NCBI GenBank assembly: GCA_030697825.1
Contig: JAUYOW010000099.1
Location: 1 to 34,810 of the forward strand
From: Gemmatimonadales bacterium
GTDB lineage: Bacteria > Gemmatimonadota > Gemmatimonadetes > Gemmatimonadales > JACORV01
Length of the DNA: 34,810 nt
Direction: 5' to 3'
Below, one piece after another: positions 15,291 through 22,717 of the stretch; the stretch's first letter is position 1; each line of letters opens with the position of its first letter. The notes beneath the pieces were generated by a model. The model saw only the letters and a program-made list of their open reading frames with translations, ran no database searches and was not told the DNA's origin. The translations under genes were made by a program, and so were the position numbers.

Positions 15291-15983
15291 ATGCCGAGGC
15301 TGATCAAGCGGGCGGCCAAGCCCGCGCTGTTCCTGCTCTGTCTCGTCCCCCTCGGCAAGCTCGTCGTGGACGGGCTCACGGGGAACCTCGAGGCCGAGGT
15401 CATCAAGGACATCACTCACCGCACCGGCTTCTGGGGCATCACACTCATCACGGTGACGCTCGCCGTGACGCCGCTGCGCCGGGTTACGGCCTGGAACGGG
15501 GCGGGGCGGTACCGGCGGATGCTCGGCCTGTTCGGCTTCTTCTACATCGTGCTGCACTTCCTCATCTACCTCGTGCTCGACCAGTTCTTCGCGTGGCAGG
15601 AGATCGTGAAGGACATCGCCAAGCGGCCGTACATCACCGTGGGGTTCACCGGCTTGGTACTCATGATCCCGCTCGCCTTCACGTCCACCGCGAAGAGCGT
15701 GAAGCGGCTCGGCAGGAAGTGGGTGCCGCTGCACAGCCTGATCTACGTGACCGCGCTTGCCGGCGTCGTTCACTTCGTGTGGTCGCAGAAGGCCGACATC
15801 TCGGTGCCGACGCGCTACGGGGTGATCCTGATCGTACTGCTGGCGCTGCGGCTCGTGCCGCGCAGTAGATTGTCGGCGTGGAGTTCCACCCTCTTCCGGA
15901 ACAACGACGCGCGATCGAGGCTCCCCTCGGCCCCATCCTCGTCGTCGCCGGCCCCGGAGCCGGCAAGACCTTCTGCCTCATAG
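15291..15983 (+). CDS. msrQ: MsrQ, haem-binding membrane partner of MsrP
   Basis: The 230-residue product contains about five or six membrane helices with histidines suited to haem binding in YIVLHFLIYLV and PLHSLIYVTALAGVVHFVW. MsrQ passes electrons from the quinone pool or a flavin reductase to MsrP. The family usually ends soon after the last helix (about 200 residues), here near VLLALRLVPRSRL. The final 35 or so codons are Ser/Pro/Ala-rich and overlap the start of the helicase gene by 106 nt; they look like read-through of the helicase Walker region in another frame. A native stop may have been lost, or an indel may be present. Confidence 0.88.
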   Translation: MPRLIKRAAKPALFLLCLVPLGKLVVDGLTGNLEAEVIKDITHRTGFWGITLITVTLAVTPLRRVTAWNGAGRYRRMLGLFGFFYIVLHFLIYLVLDQFFAWQEIVKDIAKRPYITVGFTGLVLMIPLAFTSTAKSVKRLGRKWVPLHSLIYVTALAGVVHFVWSQKADISVPTRYGVILIVLLALRLVPRSRLSAWSSTLFRNNDARSRLPSAPSSSSPAPEPARPSAS

Positions 15984-18769
15984 GCCGCGTCGGCCACCTC
16001 ATCGAGCACCTCGGCGTCGAGCCGGCGCGCATCTGCGCCGTCACCTTCACCAACAAGGCCGCCGAAGAGATCGCGCAGCGGCTGCACAATTCCCTCGGCG
16101 CCCGCGCCGAAGAAGTGACCCGCGGCACCCTGCACGCGCTCTGCCTCGGCATCCTCAGAGAGCACGGCGAAGCGATCGGTCTGCGCCAGGGCTTCGGAGT
16201 CGCCGACGAGGAGTATCAGAAGATCGTGCTGCGGCGGCTGCGCGTGCCGGGCAAGCGCGCGTCTTACGTGCTCCAGGCGTTCGGCCGGAAGCGGCTCAAG
16301 GGCGCGAAGCTGACGGCCGGAGACGAGCGGCTGTTCCAGGAGTACGTCGCCTGGCTGCGTCAACGAAGCCTGCTGGACTTCGACGACCTGGTCGCGTCCA
16401 CTTCGCGGCTCCTGGACGAGCGGCCCGACGTCGCGCGAATGGTCGCGGCGCGCTGGGACTACGTGCTCGTGGACGAGTTCCAGGACCTGAACGCCGCGCA
16501 GTACGGGATCCTGAAGCACTTGGTGGAGCCGCACCACAACCTCTTCGCGGTCGGTGACGACGAGCAGTCGGTGTTCTCGTGGACCGGCGCCGACCCTCGC
16601 ATCCTGAAGCAGTTTCAGGAGGAGTTCGGCCTCCCCCGGCCGATCGTCCTCGACCGGAACCACCGCTGCTCGCGGCAGATCTTCGAGACGGCGCGCCGCC
16701 TGCTCGCCGAGAACCCGACCCTGTTCGACAAGCAGCTCTCCGCCGAGCGGGCCTCCGAGCATGACGTGGCGGCCCGTGCGTTCGAGAGCGAGGACGCCGA
16801 GGCGGCGTGGATGCTCTCTGACCTCGTGGCGGACCGCGAGGCGACGGGGCTCAGCTGGGGCGATTTCGCGGTCCTCTATCGCACCCACGCGGTGGGCGAC
16901 CTCCTCGAGGGTTGCTTCCTACGGGCCGGCGTCCCCTGCCGGATGGCGCGAGGGCGGCCGCTGCACGAGGACCCGGTGATCGGCTACGTGATTGCGGCGC
17001 TGCGCCTCATGCGCGACCCGCGCGACCCGGCCGCCGCCGAGGCGCTGGCGCGAAAGGTGCTGCCTGAGACTCTGCTCCAGGAGATCCTCCGCTCGACGGT
17101 AGCGGGCCCTGAGGACTTCATGCTCGCGGTGCGCGACCTCGCGGGCGCGAAGCGCGGCGACCCCGACGGGAAGAAGCTCTGGCGCTTGGTCTTCCAGGTC
17201 GAGAACCTGATCGCGCTGCACCAGTCCCACGCCTCGCTGGGCTCGCTGGTGGACGACCTCCTCTCTCAGCGTCTCGGCCCTTATCGCAACGTGCTCGAGG
17301 AGCATCACGACGAGCTGACCGATCCCGCCGAAGTCCCCGCGGCGGTCGCGCTGGCCGGACGCCTCGGGGACGCGCTGCGCTCGAAGGCGCGCGTGGTGAT
17401 CGCGCGCCGGGGCGGCCTCGAGATCGCGCTGCGCGGCATGCTGTTCGGCGCCGGGTACCGGATCCTCTCGCACGAGGGGGAGGCATTCCCTCCGGCGCTG
17501 GACGACCTGAGGCTCGGGGAGGTGGACGCGCTCACCCTCTTCAAGGCGCTTCAGGTCGGGCACGCGCGGGACGCCGGCGACCCGTTCCCCGGGTTCGTGG
17601 CGTTCGACCTCGAGACCACGGACAAGGATGCCGCGACGTGCGACATCATCGAGATCGCGGCAGTGCGGGTGCGGGACGGCGAGATCGCGGACCGCTTCCA
17701 CTCCCTGGTGCGGCCGACTCGGCCGATCGCGGCGCAGGCCACCAGGCTGGCGCATGGGTACACGGACGACGACGTGAAGGAAGCGCCGCCGTTCGCCGAG
17801 GTGTGGCCGAAATTCCGGGAGTTCGCGGGCGGCGACACGCTCGTCGCCCACAACGCGCAGACCTTCGATGTGCCGGTGCTGCGCCGCGCGGCCGCCGGCA
17901 TGGAGGGTGTCGAGTCGCTCGTGTTCTACGACACGCTGCCGCTGGCGCGGTCGCTGTCGAGCGATAGCGCCAAGCTGGAGGACCTGGCCCACCGGTTCGG
18001 CATCGACACCGGCCGCTCGCACCGCGCGCTCGACGACTCGGTCACGCTGGCGCGAGTCTTCCGCGAGCTGTCCCGCCGCAAGATCGTGCGCACCCGGAAG
18101 TCGGTGCTCGTGAAGGTGCTCGACTGGCTGGCGGTGGCGCTGGTGCTGGAATCGCCGCGCGGGTCCACCACCGAGCACGGGCTTCTGCTCGAGCTCGCGC
18201 GGATCCACGCCCTGGGTCGCTTCAGCGACTGCCTCGACATCTATGCCGCCGAACTGGAGAAGGCCGCCGGTGCGCCGCCGGTGGTAGAGGTGATCGAGCG
18301 CCTTGGCGGGCGGAGGCTGATGGAGAAGCTGCGGGAGGACGTGGATCCCGCCAGACGATATCCCCAGGCGGTGGCGCGACTGCAGACGCTGCTCGACGCG
18401 AGTGAGGCCGACTGGCTGGACGAGGAGATCGAGCGGTTCCTCGAGCGCGTGGCGCTCTCTACGTCGGAGGGCGCGGACGTTGACCCGCACCGCGTCAATC
18501 TTCTCACGCTGCATTCCACCAAGGGGCTCGAGTTCTCGCGGGTGTACGTCGTGGGAGTCGAGAACGGCCAGATGCCCGGGCACCGCACGCTGGACAACGA
18601 CGATCAGGCCGAGATCCAGGAGGCGCGGCGCCTGCTTTATGTCGGGATGACGCGCGCTCGAGACCGGCTGGTGCTCACGCGGGTGGACCGGCGCTTCGGG
18701 ACCGACGCGGGCGGGAGCCGGTTCCTGGACGAGATGGAGCTCGTCCCCCTCATCGCCACGACGCCATGA
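15878..18769 (+). CDS. UvrD/Rep superfamily 1 helicase with embedded DEDDh exonuclease domain
   Basis: A 963-residue protein from GTG 15878. SF1A helicase motifs in order: Q-motif region LPEQRRAIEA, Walker A GPGAGKT (25-31), DEFQD (199-203), GDDEQSVFSWTGAD, DRNHRCSRQI, TLHSTKGLEF (His879) and YVGMTRARDR (from 921). Between motifs IV and V, residues of about 570-740 form a complete DnaQ-like 3'-5' exonuclease: FDLETT (Asp577, Glu579), AHNAQTFD (Asp664) and HRALDD (His715, Asp720), so all five DEDDh residues are there. The combination suggests unwinding and degradation by one polypeptide, perhaps in repair or replication restart. The embedding is inside the helicase core, not at a terminus. A following gene begins inside its stop codon (ATGA). 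Confidence 0.93.
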   Translation: MEFHPLPEQRRAIEAPLGPILVVAGPGAGKTFCLIGRVGHLIEHLGVEPARICAVTFTNKAAEEIAQRLHNSLGARAEEVTRGTLHALCLGILREHGEAIGLRQGFGVADEEYQKIVLRRLRVPGKRASYVLQAFGRKRLKGAKLTAGDERLFQEYVAWLRQRSLLDFDDLVASTSRLLDERPDVARMVAARWDYVLVDEFQDLNAAQYGILKHLVEPHHNLFAVGDDEQSVFSWTGADPRILKQFQEEFGLPRPIVLDRNHRCSRQIFETARRLLAENPTLFDKQLSAERASEHDVAARAFESEDAEAAWMLSDLVADREATGLSWGDFAVLYRTHAVGDLLEGCFLRAGVPCRMARGRPLHEDPVIGYVIAALRLMRDPRDPAAAEALARKVLPETLLQEILRSTVAGPEDFMLAVRDLAGAKRGDPDGKKLWRLVFQVENLIALHQSHASLGSLVDDLLSQRLGPYRNVLEEHHDELTDPAEVPAAVALAGRLGDALRSKARVVIARRGGLEIALRGMLFGAGYRILSHEGEAFPPALDDLRLGEVDALTLFKALQVGHARDAGDPFPGFVAFDLETTDKDAATCDIIEIAAVRVRDGEIADRFHSLVRPTRPIAAQATRLAHGYTDDDVKEAPPFAEVWPKFREFAGGDTLVAHNAQTFDVPVLRRAAAGMEGVESLVFYDTLPLARSLSSDSAKLEDLAHRFGIDTGRSHRALDDSVTLARVFRELSRRKIVRTRKSVLVKVLDWLAVALVLESPRGSTTEHGLLLELARIHALGRFSDCLDIYAAELEKAAGAPPVVEVIERLGGRRLMEKLREDVDPARRYPQAVARLQTLLDASEADWLDEEIERFLERVALSTSEGADVDPHRVNLLTLHSTKGLEFSRVYVVGVENGQMPGHRTLDNDDQAEIQEARRLLYVGMTRARDRLVLTRVDRRFGTDAGGSRFLDEMELVPLIATTP

Positions 18770-19673: not shown

Positions 19674-20963
<1,290 letters not shown>

Positions 20964-20982
20964 CGGGTGCTCCAGTACGGGT

Positions 20983-22611
20983 TCAGTCGAGGTGTTCGTA
21001 GGCCGCGATCGTGAGGAACTCGGGGTAGTCCTCGCGGGTCATCATGTCGGTGAAGAGCCTGGCGGCGAGGTCGAACTTCCCGCCGTCGAGCCGCTCCGCG
21101 CCCAGCCGGTCGCGCAGGTGCGCCAATTCCTCCGCCATCGTCTCCTGGACCAGCTCGCGCGTCACCGGCCGGCCGTCGTCGAGCTTGGCGCCGTGGCGAA
21201 TCCACTGCCACACCTGGCTGCGGGAGATCTCCGCGGTCGCGGCGTCCTCCATGAGGTTGTAGATCGGGACGCAGCCGTTACCGCCCAGCCACGCCTCGAG
21301 GTACTGGATCCCAACGTCGATATTGGTGCGAAGCCCGCGCTCGGTGACGGCCCCGGCGTGCGGCATGAGCAAGTCGTGTGAAGTCACGTGGACGTCGTCC
21401 CTGCGGCGCGGGATCTGGTTGGGCGGACGCATGTGCACCTCGAAGACGTCGCGCGCGATCCCCACCAGGCCCGGGTGCGCCACCCACGTCCCGTCGTGGC
21501 CCGCCTTCACCTCGCGCAGCTTGTCGCGCCGCACCTTCTCCAGCGCCCAGTCGTTCTCGTCCGGGTCCCCCTTGATCGGGATCTGCGCCGCCATCCCGCC
21601 CATCGCGTGGATGCCGCGGCGGTGACAGGTATGGATCAGCAGCTGCACGTAAGCGTCGAGGAAGTGCCGGTCCATCGTGACCTGAGCGCGGTCCGGCAGC
21701 ACGAACTCGGCCCGGTTCCTGAACGTCTTGATGAAGCTGAAGATGTAGTCCCAGCGCCCGCAGTTGAGCCCCGCCGAATGGTCCTTCAGCTCCCACAGGA
21801 TCTCGTGCATCTCGAAGCCGGCGTGGATGGTCTCGATCAGCACCGTCGCCCGGATGGTGCCGCGCGGGATGCCGAGGTGGTCCTGCGCCAAGTTGAAGAC
21901 GTCGTTCCAGAGTCGAGCCTCGAGGTGGCTCTGCAGCTTCGGGAGGTAAAAGTACGGCCCCTCGTCGCGCGCGATCTGCTCTTTCGCGTTGTGGAAGAAG
22001 AAGAGCCCGAAGTCGAACAGCGCCCCCGATATCGGGGCGCCGTCGACGAATAGGTGCTTCTCCTGCAGGTGCCACCCGCGCGGCCGTACGAAGAGGACCG
22101 CGGTCTCGGGCTTAAGCTCGTAACGCTTCCCTTCGGGGCCCTGAAAGGAGATCTCGCGGCGGACGGCATCACGCAGGTTGAACTGGCCGTCGAGGTTGTT
22201 GGCCCAGGTCGGTGAGTTGGAGTCCTCGAAGTCGGCCATGAAGACGTTGGCGCCGGAGTTGAGCGCGTTGATGATCATCTTCCGGTCCACCGGACCGGTG
22301 ATCTCGACCGTGCGGTTCTGGAGGTCCTTGGGGATCGGCGCGACGGTCCAGTTGCTCTCGCGGACCTCGCGCGTCTCCAGGAGGAAGTCCGGGAGGGCGC
22401 CGGCTTCGATCTCGCGCTGCCGCGTCGCGCGTCGGGCCAGCAGCTCCTGGCGCCGCCCCTCGAACGTCCGGTGGAGCGCGGCCAGAAAGGCGAGCGCGTC
22501 CGGGGTCAGGACCTCGGCGTGGGCCCCGCTCACCGGACCGCGCAGCTCGAGGCCTCCCTTGCCCAGGGACGCGTTGAGGTCGGCGCGGTGATCGACGGCG
22601 GCGGCGGACAT
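20983..22611 (-). CDS. aceB: Malate synthase A
   Basis: The product has 542 residues, typical of the A isoform. ATG 22611 is chosen because GGAGAG lies about 6 nt upstream; an in-frame GTG nine codons earlier is less likely. The family signature [20 protein letters not shown] is present, as are [12 protein letters not shown] and the catalytic-site region near [16 protein letters not shown]. It condenses glyoxylate with acetyl-CoA to malate. It leads the leftward aceB-aceA-deaminase operon. The 106 bp upstream holds a -10-like TATCTT (22642-22647) with no convincing -35. Confidence 0.97.
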
Positions 22612-22717
22612 CGAGCACTCTCCAAACGGGGACTTCACACGAAGATAGCAAGTTCTGCGCCGGTCCGACTCCCCGTCCTCCAGCCGAACTCCGTCCCGCC
22701 TCGGGTTGCGGGGGCGG

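Follow-up and report, generated by a model that had tools for sequence, protein, structure and literature searches.

What does a UvrD-type helicase do for a bacterium when a DnaQ-type exonuclease is inserted in its core? This question is raised by contig JAUYOW010000099.1 of a Gemmatimonadales bacterium (assembly GCA_030697825.1), whose full 34,810-nt stretch is called the window below. It encodes a UvrD-DEDDh protein (P0001), here called the fusion. Bacterial end joining is usually portrayed as the work of Ku and LigD, and little is known of partners for unwinding or trimming the ends (PMC3656841). We found that the fusion family is conserved and linked to non-homologous end joining (NHEJ), two points that an earlier note on this DNA had missed. 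We consider it fairly probable that the fusion is an undescribed processor of double-strand-break ends that works with Ku and LigD.

Domain architecture of the fusion

The protein gave three Pfam matches, all exceeding the curated cut-offs by far: UvrD-helicase at residues 7-250 (E 3e-64), RNase_T/DEDDh exonuclease at 574-728 (3e-28) and UvrD_C at 845-934 (1e-35). The superfamily 1A (SF1A) motifs Q and I to VI follow one another in canonical order within PF00580 and PF13361 (motif Ia at residues 54-65; the others are placed in Table 1). ExoI, ExoII and ExoIII motifs with all five catalytic residues assign the insert to the DEDDh (DnaQ-type) exonucleases. The earlier note had described the SF1A motifs together with D577, E579, D664, H715 and D720 in one chain, and these five residues mapped to the positions it gave. 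Every detail of that description that could be checked proved correct. The nuclease also lies between motifs IV and V, as claimed there: the exonuclease (573-732) falls between IVa (330-337) and V (875-891).

Among solved structures, the motor came closest in sequence to PcrA, UvrD and Rep, and the insert to the PolC exonuclease (2p1j). The fusion stayed below the NCBIfam equivalog cut-offs for pcrA (344 bits versus 911), rep (334 versus 951) and uvrD (286 versus 1144). A Pfam scan of P0001 gave no match to PDDEXK, the C-terminal PD-(D/E)XK nuclease that characterizes AddAB, RecBCD and AdnAB. The nuclease is instead the internal DEDDh domain, and its fold differs from that of the AddAB/RecB nuclease, as had been proposed.

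A remodelled 2B region

AlphaFold, run on a 63-sequence alignment, predicted a single confident fold with a predicted local distance difference test (pLDDT) score of 90.2 and a predicted template modelling (pTM) score of 0.82. The insert is inside the folded helicase in this model; the note had allowed that it might lie outside. The best solved structural matches of the model were PcrA, UvrD and Rep (1pjr, 1uaa, 4c2t), which covered nearly the whole chain. The reading of a putative helicase-nuclease in one chain, put forward in the note, is supported.

In the model, the exonuclease fold (about 572-742) is bordered by helical segments (about 384-505 and 745-860) and by an alpha/beta element (506-571). 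Motifs IVa and V are 542 residues apart in the fusion versus about 204 in PcrA of the same order, making the spacing ~340 residues longer. None of the 63 fusion members has the GIG duplex-binding motif at the start of 2B, where at least 14 of the 21 local PcrA proteins carry it. The fusion thus lacks the compact 2B subdomain with GIG by which UvrD/PcrA-type helicases are recognized. Global profile alignment of the two fusion 2B halves to PcrA 2B gave a poor match across the region. Our assignment of the flanking helices as homologues of PcrA 2B is therefore based on position, the alignment to PcrA 486-641 and the fold, the sequence likeness being weak.

The model indicates that the DEDDh insert splits and remodels an enlarged 2B and does not simply replace it. 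Of the original proposal that the nuclease sits where 2B normally lies, the location stands, but the exonuclease does not occupy this region alone: helices and the alpha/beta element surround it. The layout had also been taken to suggest an exonuclease positioned near the translocated strand. The 2B region of UvrD enzymes is on the duplex side and swings widely, so an exonuclease there could equally favour the junction.

Conservation and distribution of the family

We collected 63 full-length homologues (44-62% identity), all with an open frame and the same helicase-exonuclease-helicase order. D577, E579, D664, H715, D720 and the key helicase-motif residues are invariant across their alignment. 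The homologues come from independent assemblies, single-contig genomes included, which rules out a chance or assembly fusion.

The fusion was present in 69 of 298 Gemmatimonadota genomes, all belonging to the order of the window or to one other family of the class. Among the matches listed from ~85,000 species genomes, it occurred almost solely in Gemmatimonadota. The family is chromosomal. No copy of the fusion turned up in 50,697 phage records, 72,556 plasmid records or viral contigs, which yielded only ordinary UvrD-like helicases; this speaks against a phage or plasmid origin. The earlier note had asked whether the architecture might be a common, already characterized one. Within one phylum it is moderately common, and the literature searched contains no description of it.

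A few copies outside this pattern deserve mention. Two loci labelled Planctomycetota (L068 and L071) form a long branch nested in the Gemmatimonadota tree, for which transfer and misbinning are both possible. Loci labelled Chloroflexi (L045) and Gammaproteobacteria SG8_30 (L050) are probably mislabelled bins. Two members (L026 at G029:C6, and G137:C6) contain one in-frame stop (TAA, TGA) and are pseudogenes or carry sequence errors. Two giant-virus proteins in BFVD, A0A3G4ZXM9 and A0A7D3QTW5 (one of them named 'Putative helicase/exonuclease'), could be aligned to the model over the whole length, at poor TM-scores.

Linkage to Ku and LigD

When neighbour genes were clustered, those for Ku, LigD and a DUF72 protein recurred beside the fusion. 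Pfam searches verified these as Ku (PF02735), DUF72 and a LigD with three domains (3'-phosphoesterase, ligase and primase-polymerase). By tblastn, Ku was within 5 kb downstream of the fusion in 14 of the 75 loci checked, and in 11 of the 49 that have at least 5 kb of downstream sequence. At the 14 linked loci the distance between Ku and the fusion ranges from 62 bp to 4.9 kb, and Ku is always on the opposite strand. LigD comes next, on the strand of the fusion, in 13 loci; the fourteenth contig stops at Ku. The resulting order is the fusion, a Ku gene pointing towards it and usually a LigD gene pointing away.

In whole genomes, Ku was within 7 kb of the fusion in 17 of the 66 fusion genomes of the order, whereas random placement in a genome of ~3.5 Mb would predict well below one. 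Ku is downstream of and convergent with the fusion in 16 of these; the exception (G040) is an incomplete copy at the end of a contig. In the linked genomes in which PcrA was also mapped, PcrA and Ku are on different contigs. The Ku-linked loci are dispersed across the family tree, and at least seven changes are needed to account for them. They are therefore not one close group, and the arrangement is either old or formed repeatedly.

The two genes also co-occur. Within the order of the window, Ku was present in 58 of 66 genomes with the fusion versus 42 of 106 without it (Fisher p 2e-10), and inside family f2 the counts were 24 of 27 versus 22 of 76 (p 5e-8). Gene linkage and co-occurrence with Ku/LigD, by which we would recognize an NHEJ component, were thus both found, the linkage in a subset of loci that excludes the window locus.

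In the genome of the window, Ku (-) and LigD (+) form a divergent pair on another contig (L162, G000:C327, 6969-11067). An alpha/beta hydrolase follows this pair, and its family also adjoins the fusion in some relatives. A DUF72 protein is repeatedly encoded between the fusion gene and Ku (L089, 8551-9255; L163, 7814-8524; L164, 6723-7421).

Proposed function and alternatives

We propose the following scheme. Ku would mark the broken end, and the SF1A motor would load on a 3' tail or open the end in the 3'-to-5' direction. The DEDDh exonuclease would trim 3' ends, either damaged termini or non-matching 3' flaps arising from microhomology pairing, and LigD would then fill and seal the trimmed ends. 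The observed basis is the architecture, the invariant active sites, the predicted fold, the gene order with Ku-LigD and the co-occurrence with Ku. We infer the helicase and exonuclease activities and their polarity, the substrate, and a partnership with Ku, be it physical or functional. We put forward with some reserve a narrower version, in which the fusion might be a third dedicated end-joining component of Gemmatimonadota: directed by Ku, this helicase-exonuclease would open and trim ends ahead of filling and sealing by LigD. Its exonuclease would then work from within the remodelled 2B domain.

Several observations weigh against a role in end joining. Ku was absent nearby in 38 of the 49 loci with enough flank, and no Ku was detected in 8 of the 66 fusion genomes. 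At the window locus, Ku and LigD are not adjacent to the fusion gene, whose neighbours there are metabolic genes. LigD itself has a 3'-phosphoesterase. When presence was shuffled within genera, the association with Ku was only suggestive (p 0.08), so part of the co-occurrence reflects shared ancestry.

The fusion might instead be a single-chain stand-in for AddAB/RecBCD that resects or degrades ends for homologous recombination, with DEDDh replacing PD-(D/E)XK; the linkage to Ku would then mirror a shared double-strand-break context. We regard this as rather unlikely, although the distribution of AddA gives it some weight. The genomes surveyed for the fusion were also searched with AddA and PDDEXK_1 models, using thresholds picked after the data were seen and on which the conclusion depends: at the strict AddA cut-off (TIGR02785, E<=2e-25), AddA-like genes were found in 0 of 66 fusion genomes versus 16 of 106 others in the order (p 3e-4), and strong PDDEXK_1 matches in 3 of 66 versus 20 of 106 (p 0.01; within genera p 0.02). 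Two of the three exceptions appear to be a methylase-linked helicase-nuclease (G242) and a prophage gene (G270); the third (G161) is a helicase-nuclease that is truncated and lies at the end of a contig. In several genera, one species has the fusion and another a strong PDDEXK_1 gene. Weak PDDEXK matches, however, are partly other helicases or divergent AddA-like proteins, so that the signal mixes protein types, and at the strong PDDEXK cut-off 86 of the 172 genomes of the order had neither enzyme. With about half of the order lacking both, neither is required. Moreover, recombination depends on a 3' overhang, whereas DEDDh enzymes act by trimming 3' ends, and the gene order favours Ku-LigD, a competitor of resection. 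We therefore treat the anti-correlation with AddA as a lead and not as a demonstration; it keeps a recombination-type role alive.

It is unlikely, in our estimate, that the fusion is an accessory UvrD/Rep-type helicase for forks, excision or mismatch repair, whose exonuclease trims 3' ends at stalled forks and whose linkage to Ku is incidental or ancestral hitch-hiking. The helicase core does resemble PcrA, Rep and UvrD most, Ku is not adjacent at the window locus or at most other loci, and UvrD-family enzymes serve many pathways. But an ordinary, canonical PcrA is encoded separately in the genome of the window (G000:C187), which makes the fusion a second, specialized helicase, and the recurrent order of fusion, Ku and LigD in distant branches is unexpected for an accessory enzyme. 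A role in anti-phage defence, as a helicase-nuclease akin to Gabija GajB or similar, appears very improbable. The helicase part scored as high as 316 bits with PADLOC GajB models and the presence of the fusion is patchy, but such scores are generic for UvrD helicases and lower than the PcrA score. No phage or plasmid copy was found, and the genes that recur beside the fusion belong to end joining. The scanned neighbours at the window locus included no GajA-like (OLD-type) nuclease or other defence gene; in the absence of this partner, membership in Gabija (GajAB) itself is rejected.

The search for PDDEXK_1 also returned proteins of other kinds. At L135 (G002:C25) and L136 (G023:C27) it found TM0106-like proteins that combine PDDEXK_1, RNase_H_2 and an AAA_11/AAA_12 helicase, encoded beside RmuC in G002. 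A UvrD-PDDEXK helicase-nuclease at L132 (G242:C228) adjoins an N6/N4 DNA methylase and looks like part of a restriction or defence module.

The gene and its surroundings

The open reading frame (ORF) of the fusion starts with GTG, and its GC content by codon position (0.75/0.44/0.91) is gene-like. Its features are listed in Table 1. An MsrQ-like (Ferric_reduct) ORF at 15291-15983 (+) runs 106 nt into the beginning of the fusion gene, in a different frame. Since Walker A is already at residue 24, a start much further downstream is impossible for the fusion; the overlap may be genuine or may come from an over-extended MsrQ frame. The region downstream of the fusion contains adjoining genes for isocitrate lyase and malate synthase (19674-22638, -), which make up a complete glyoxylate shunt pair.

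Table 1. Features of the fusion gene, in window coordinates
Feature	Position	Strand	Evidence
UvrD-DEDDh helicase-exonuclease gene, 963 aa	15878..18769	+	ORF, Pfam, homologue alignment, AlphaFold
Q motif (residues 6-13) and motif I/Walker A AGPGAGKT (residues 24-31)	15893..15970	+	Residues 24-31 invariant in 63 homologues
Motif II LVDEFQD (197-203) and motif III (224-238)	16466..16591	+	Motif mapping, homologue alignment
Motif IV (257-264) to IVa FAVLYRTH (330-337), first segment of domain 2A	16646..16888	+	Motif mapping, sequence match to solved structures
Enlarged 2B-like region, first helical part (residues 388-505)	17039..17392	+	AlphaFold secondary structure; PcrA GIG motif absent in 63/63
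Small conserved alpha/beta element (residues 506-571, consensus GGxEIALxGML...LFKALQL)	17393..17591	+	Alignment, AlphaFold
DEDDh (DnaQ/RNase T-type) exonuclease insert (residues 573-732)	17594..18073	+	PF00929 3e-28; PolC exonuclease 2p1j E 4e-22
ExoI motif FVAFDLETT with Asp577 and Glu579	17594..17620	+	Motif mapping, homologue alignment
ExoII motif with Asp664	17840..17881	+	Motif mapping, homologue alignment
ExoIII-epsilon motif SHRALDD with His715 and Asp720	18017..18049	+	Motif mapping, homologue alignment
2B-like region, second helical part (residues 743-862)	18104..18463	+	AlphaFold; residues 804-953 align to PcrA 486-641
Motif V LLTLHSTKGLEF (875-891) and motif VI (915-934)	18500..18679	+	Motif mapping, homologue alignment

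Comparison with known systems

The motor and nuclease families, and helicase-nuclease fusions as such, are already known; the DEDDh-inside-2B layout and the linkage to NHEJ have no description in the literature searched. A full-text search, with most subscription journals outside its scope, found no UvrD-DnaQ/DEDDh fusion, no SF1A helicase with DEDDh in 2B and no link of this kind to NHEJ. The family is a naturally occurring example of a UvrD-type motor whose 2B subdomain houses a nuclease. As a conserved SF1A-DEDDh family often found beside Ku/LigD, it is also a concrete candidate for end processing, with active sites that can be mutated.

The fusion shares with PcrA, UvrD and Rep all helicase motifs and the 1A/1B/2A core, and these proteins are its best matches in sequence and structure. 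It differs from them by its longer IVa-V region, the loss of GIG and the complete DEDDh exonuclease. With AddAB, RecBCD and AdnAB it has in common an SF1A motor and a nuclease in one chain, the double-strand-break theme and a fold match. Those enzymes, however, are complexes of two or three subunits with a C-terminal PD-(D/E)XK nuclease, whereas the nuclease of the fusion is an internal DEDDh domain.

Mycobacterial UvrD1 is the nearest functional precedent. Unlike the fusion, UvrD1 is not known to have an exonuclease domain. According to Sinha et al. 2007, as cited in PMC3656841, UvrD1 is a Ku-dependent helicase on 3'-tailed DNA. It is a UvrD-type helicase tied to Ku and double-strand-break repair (PMC3656841), as the fusion may be, judging by its gene linkage.

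Among bacterial helicases fused to a DEDDh 3'-5' exonuclease, the nearest is ExoDinG, the DinG of S. aureus and B. subtilis (PMC12345164). ExoDinG is an SF2 (superfamily 2, XPD-like) 5'-3' helicase with an N-terminal exonuclease, whereas the fusion is an SF1A protein with an internal one and does not belong to that family. In B. subtilis, the helicase MrfA and the DEDDh exonuclease MrfB act jointly in repair (PMC11194089). Unlike the fusion, these are two separate proteins with an SF2 helicase, and they serve mitomycin C repair.

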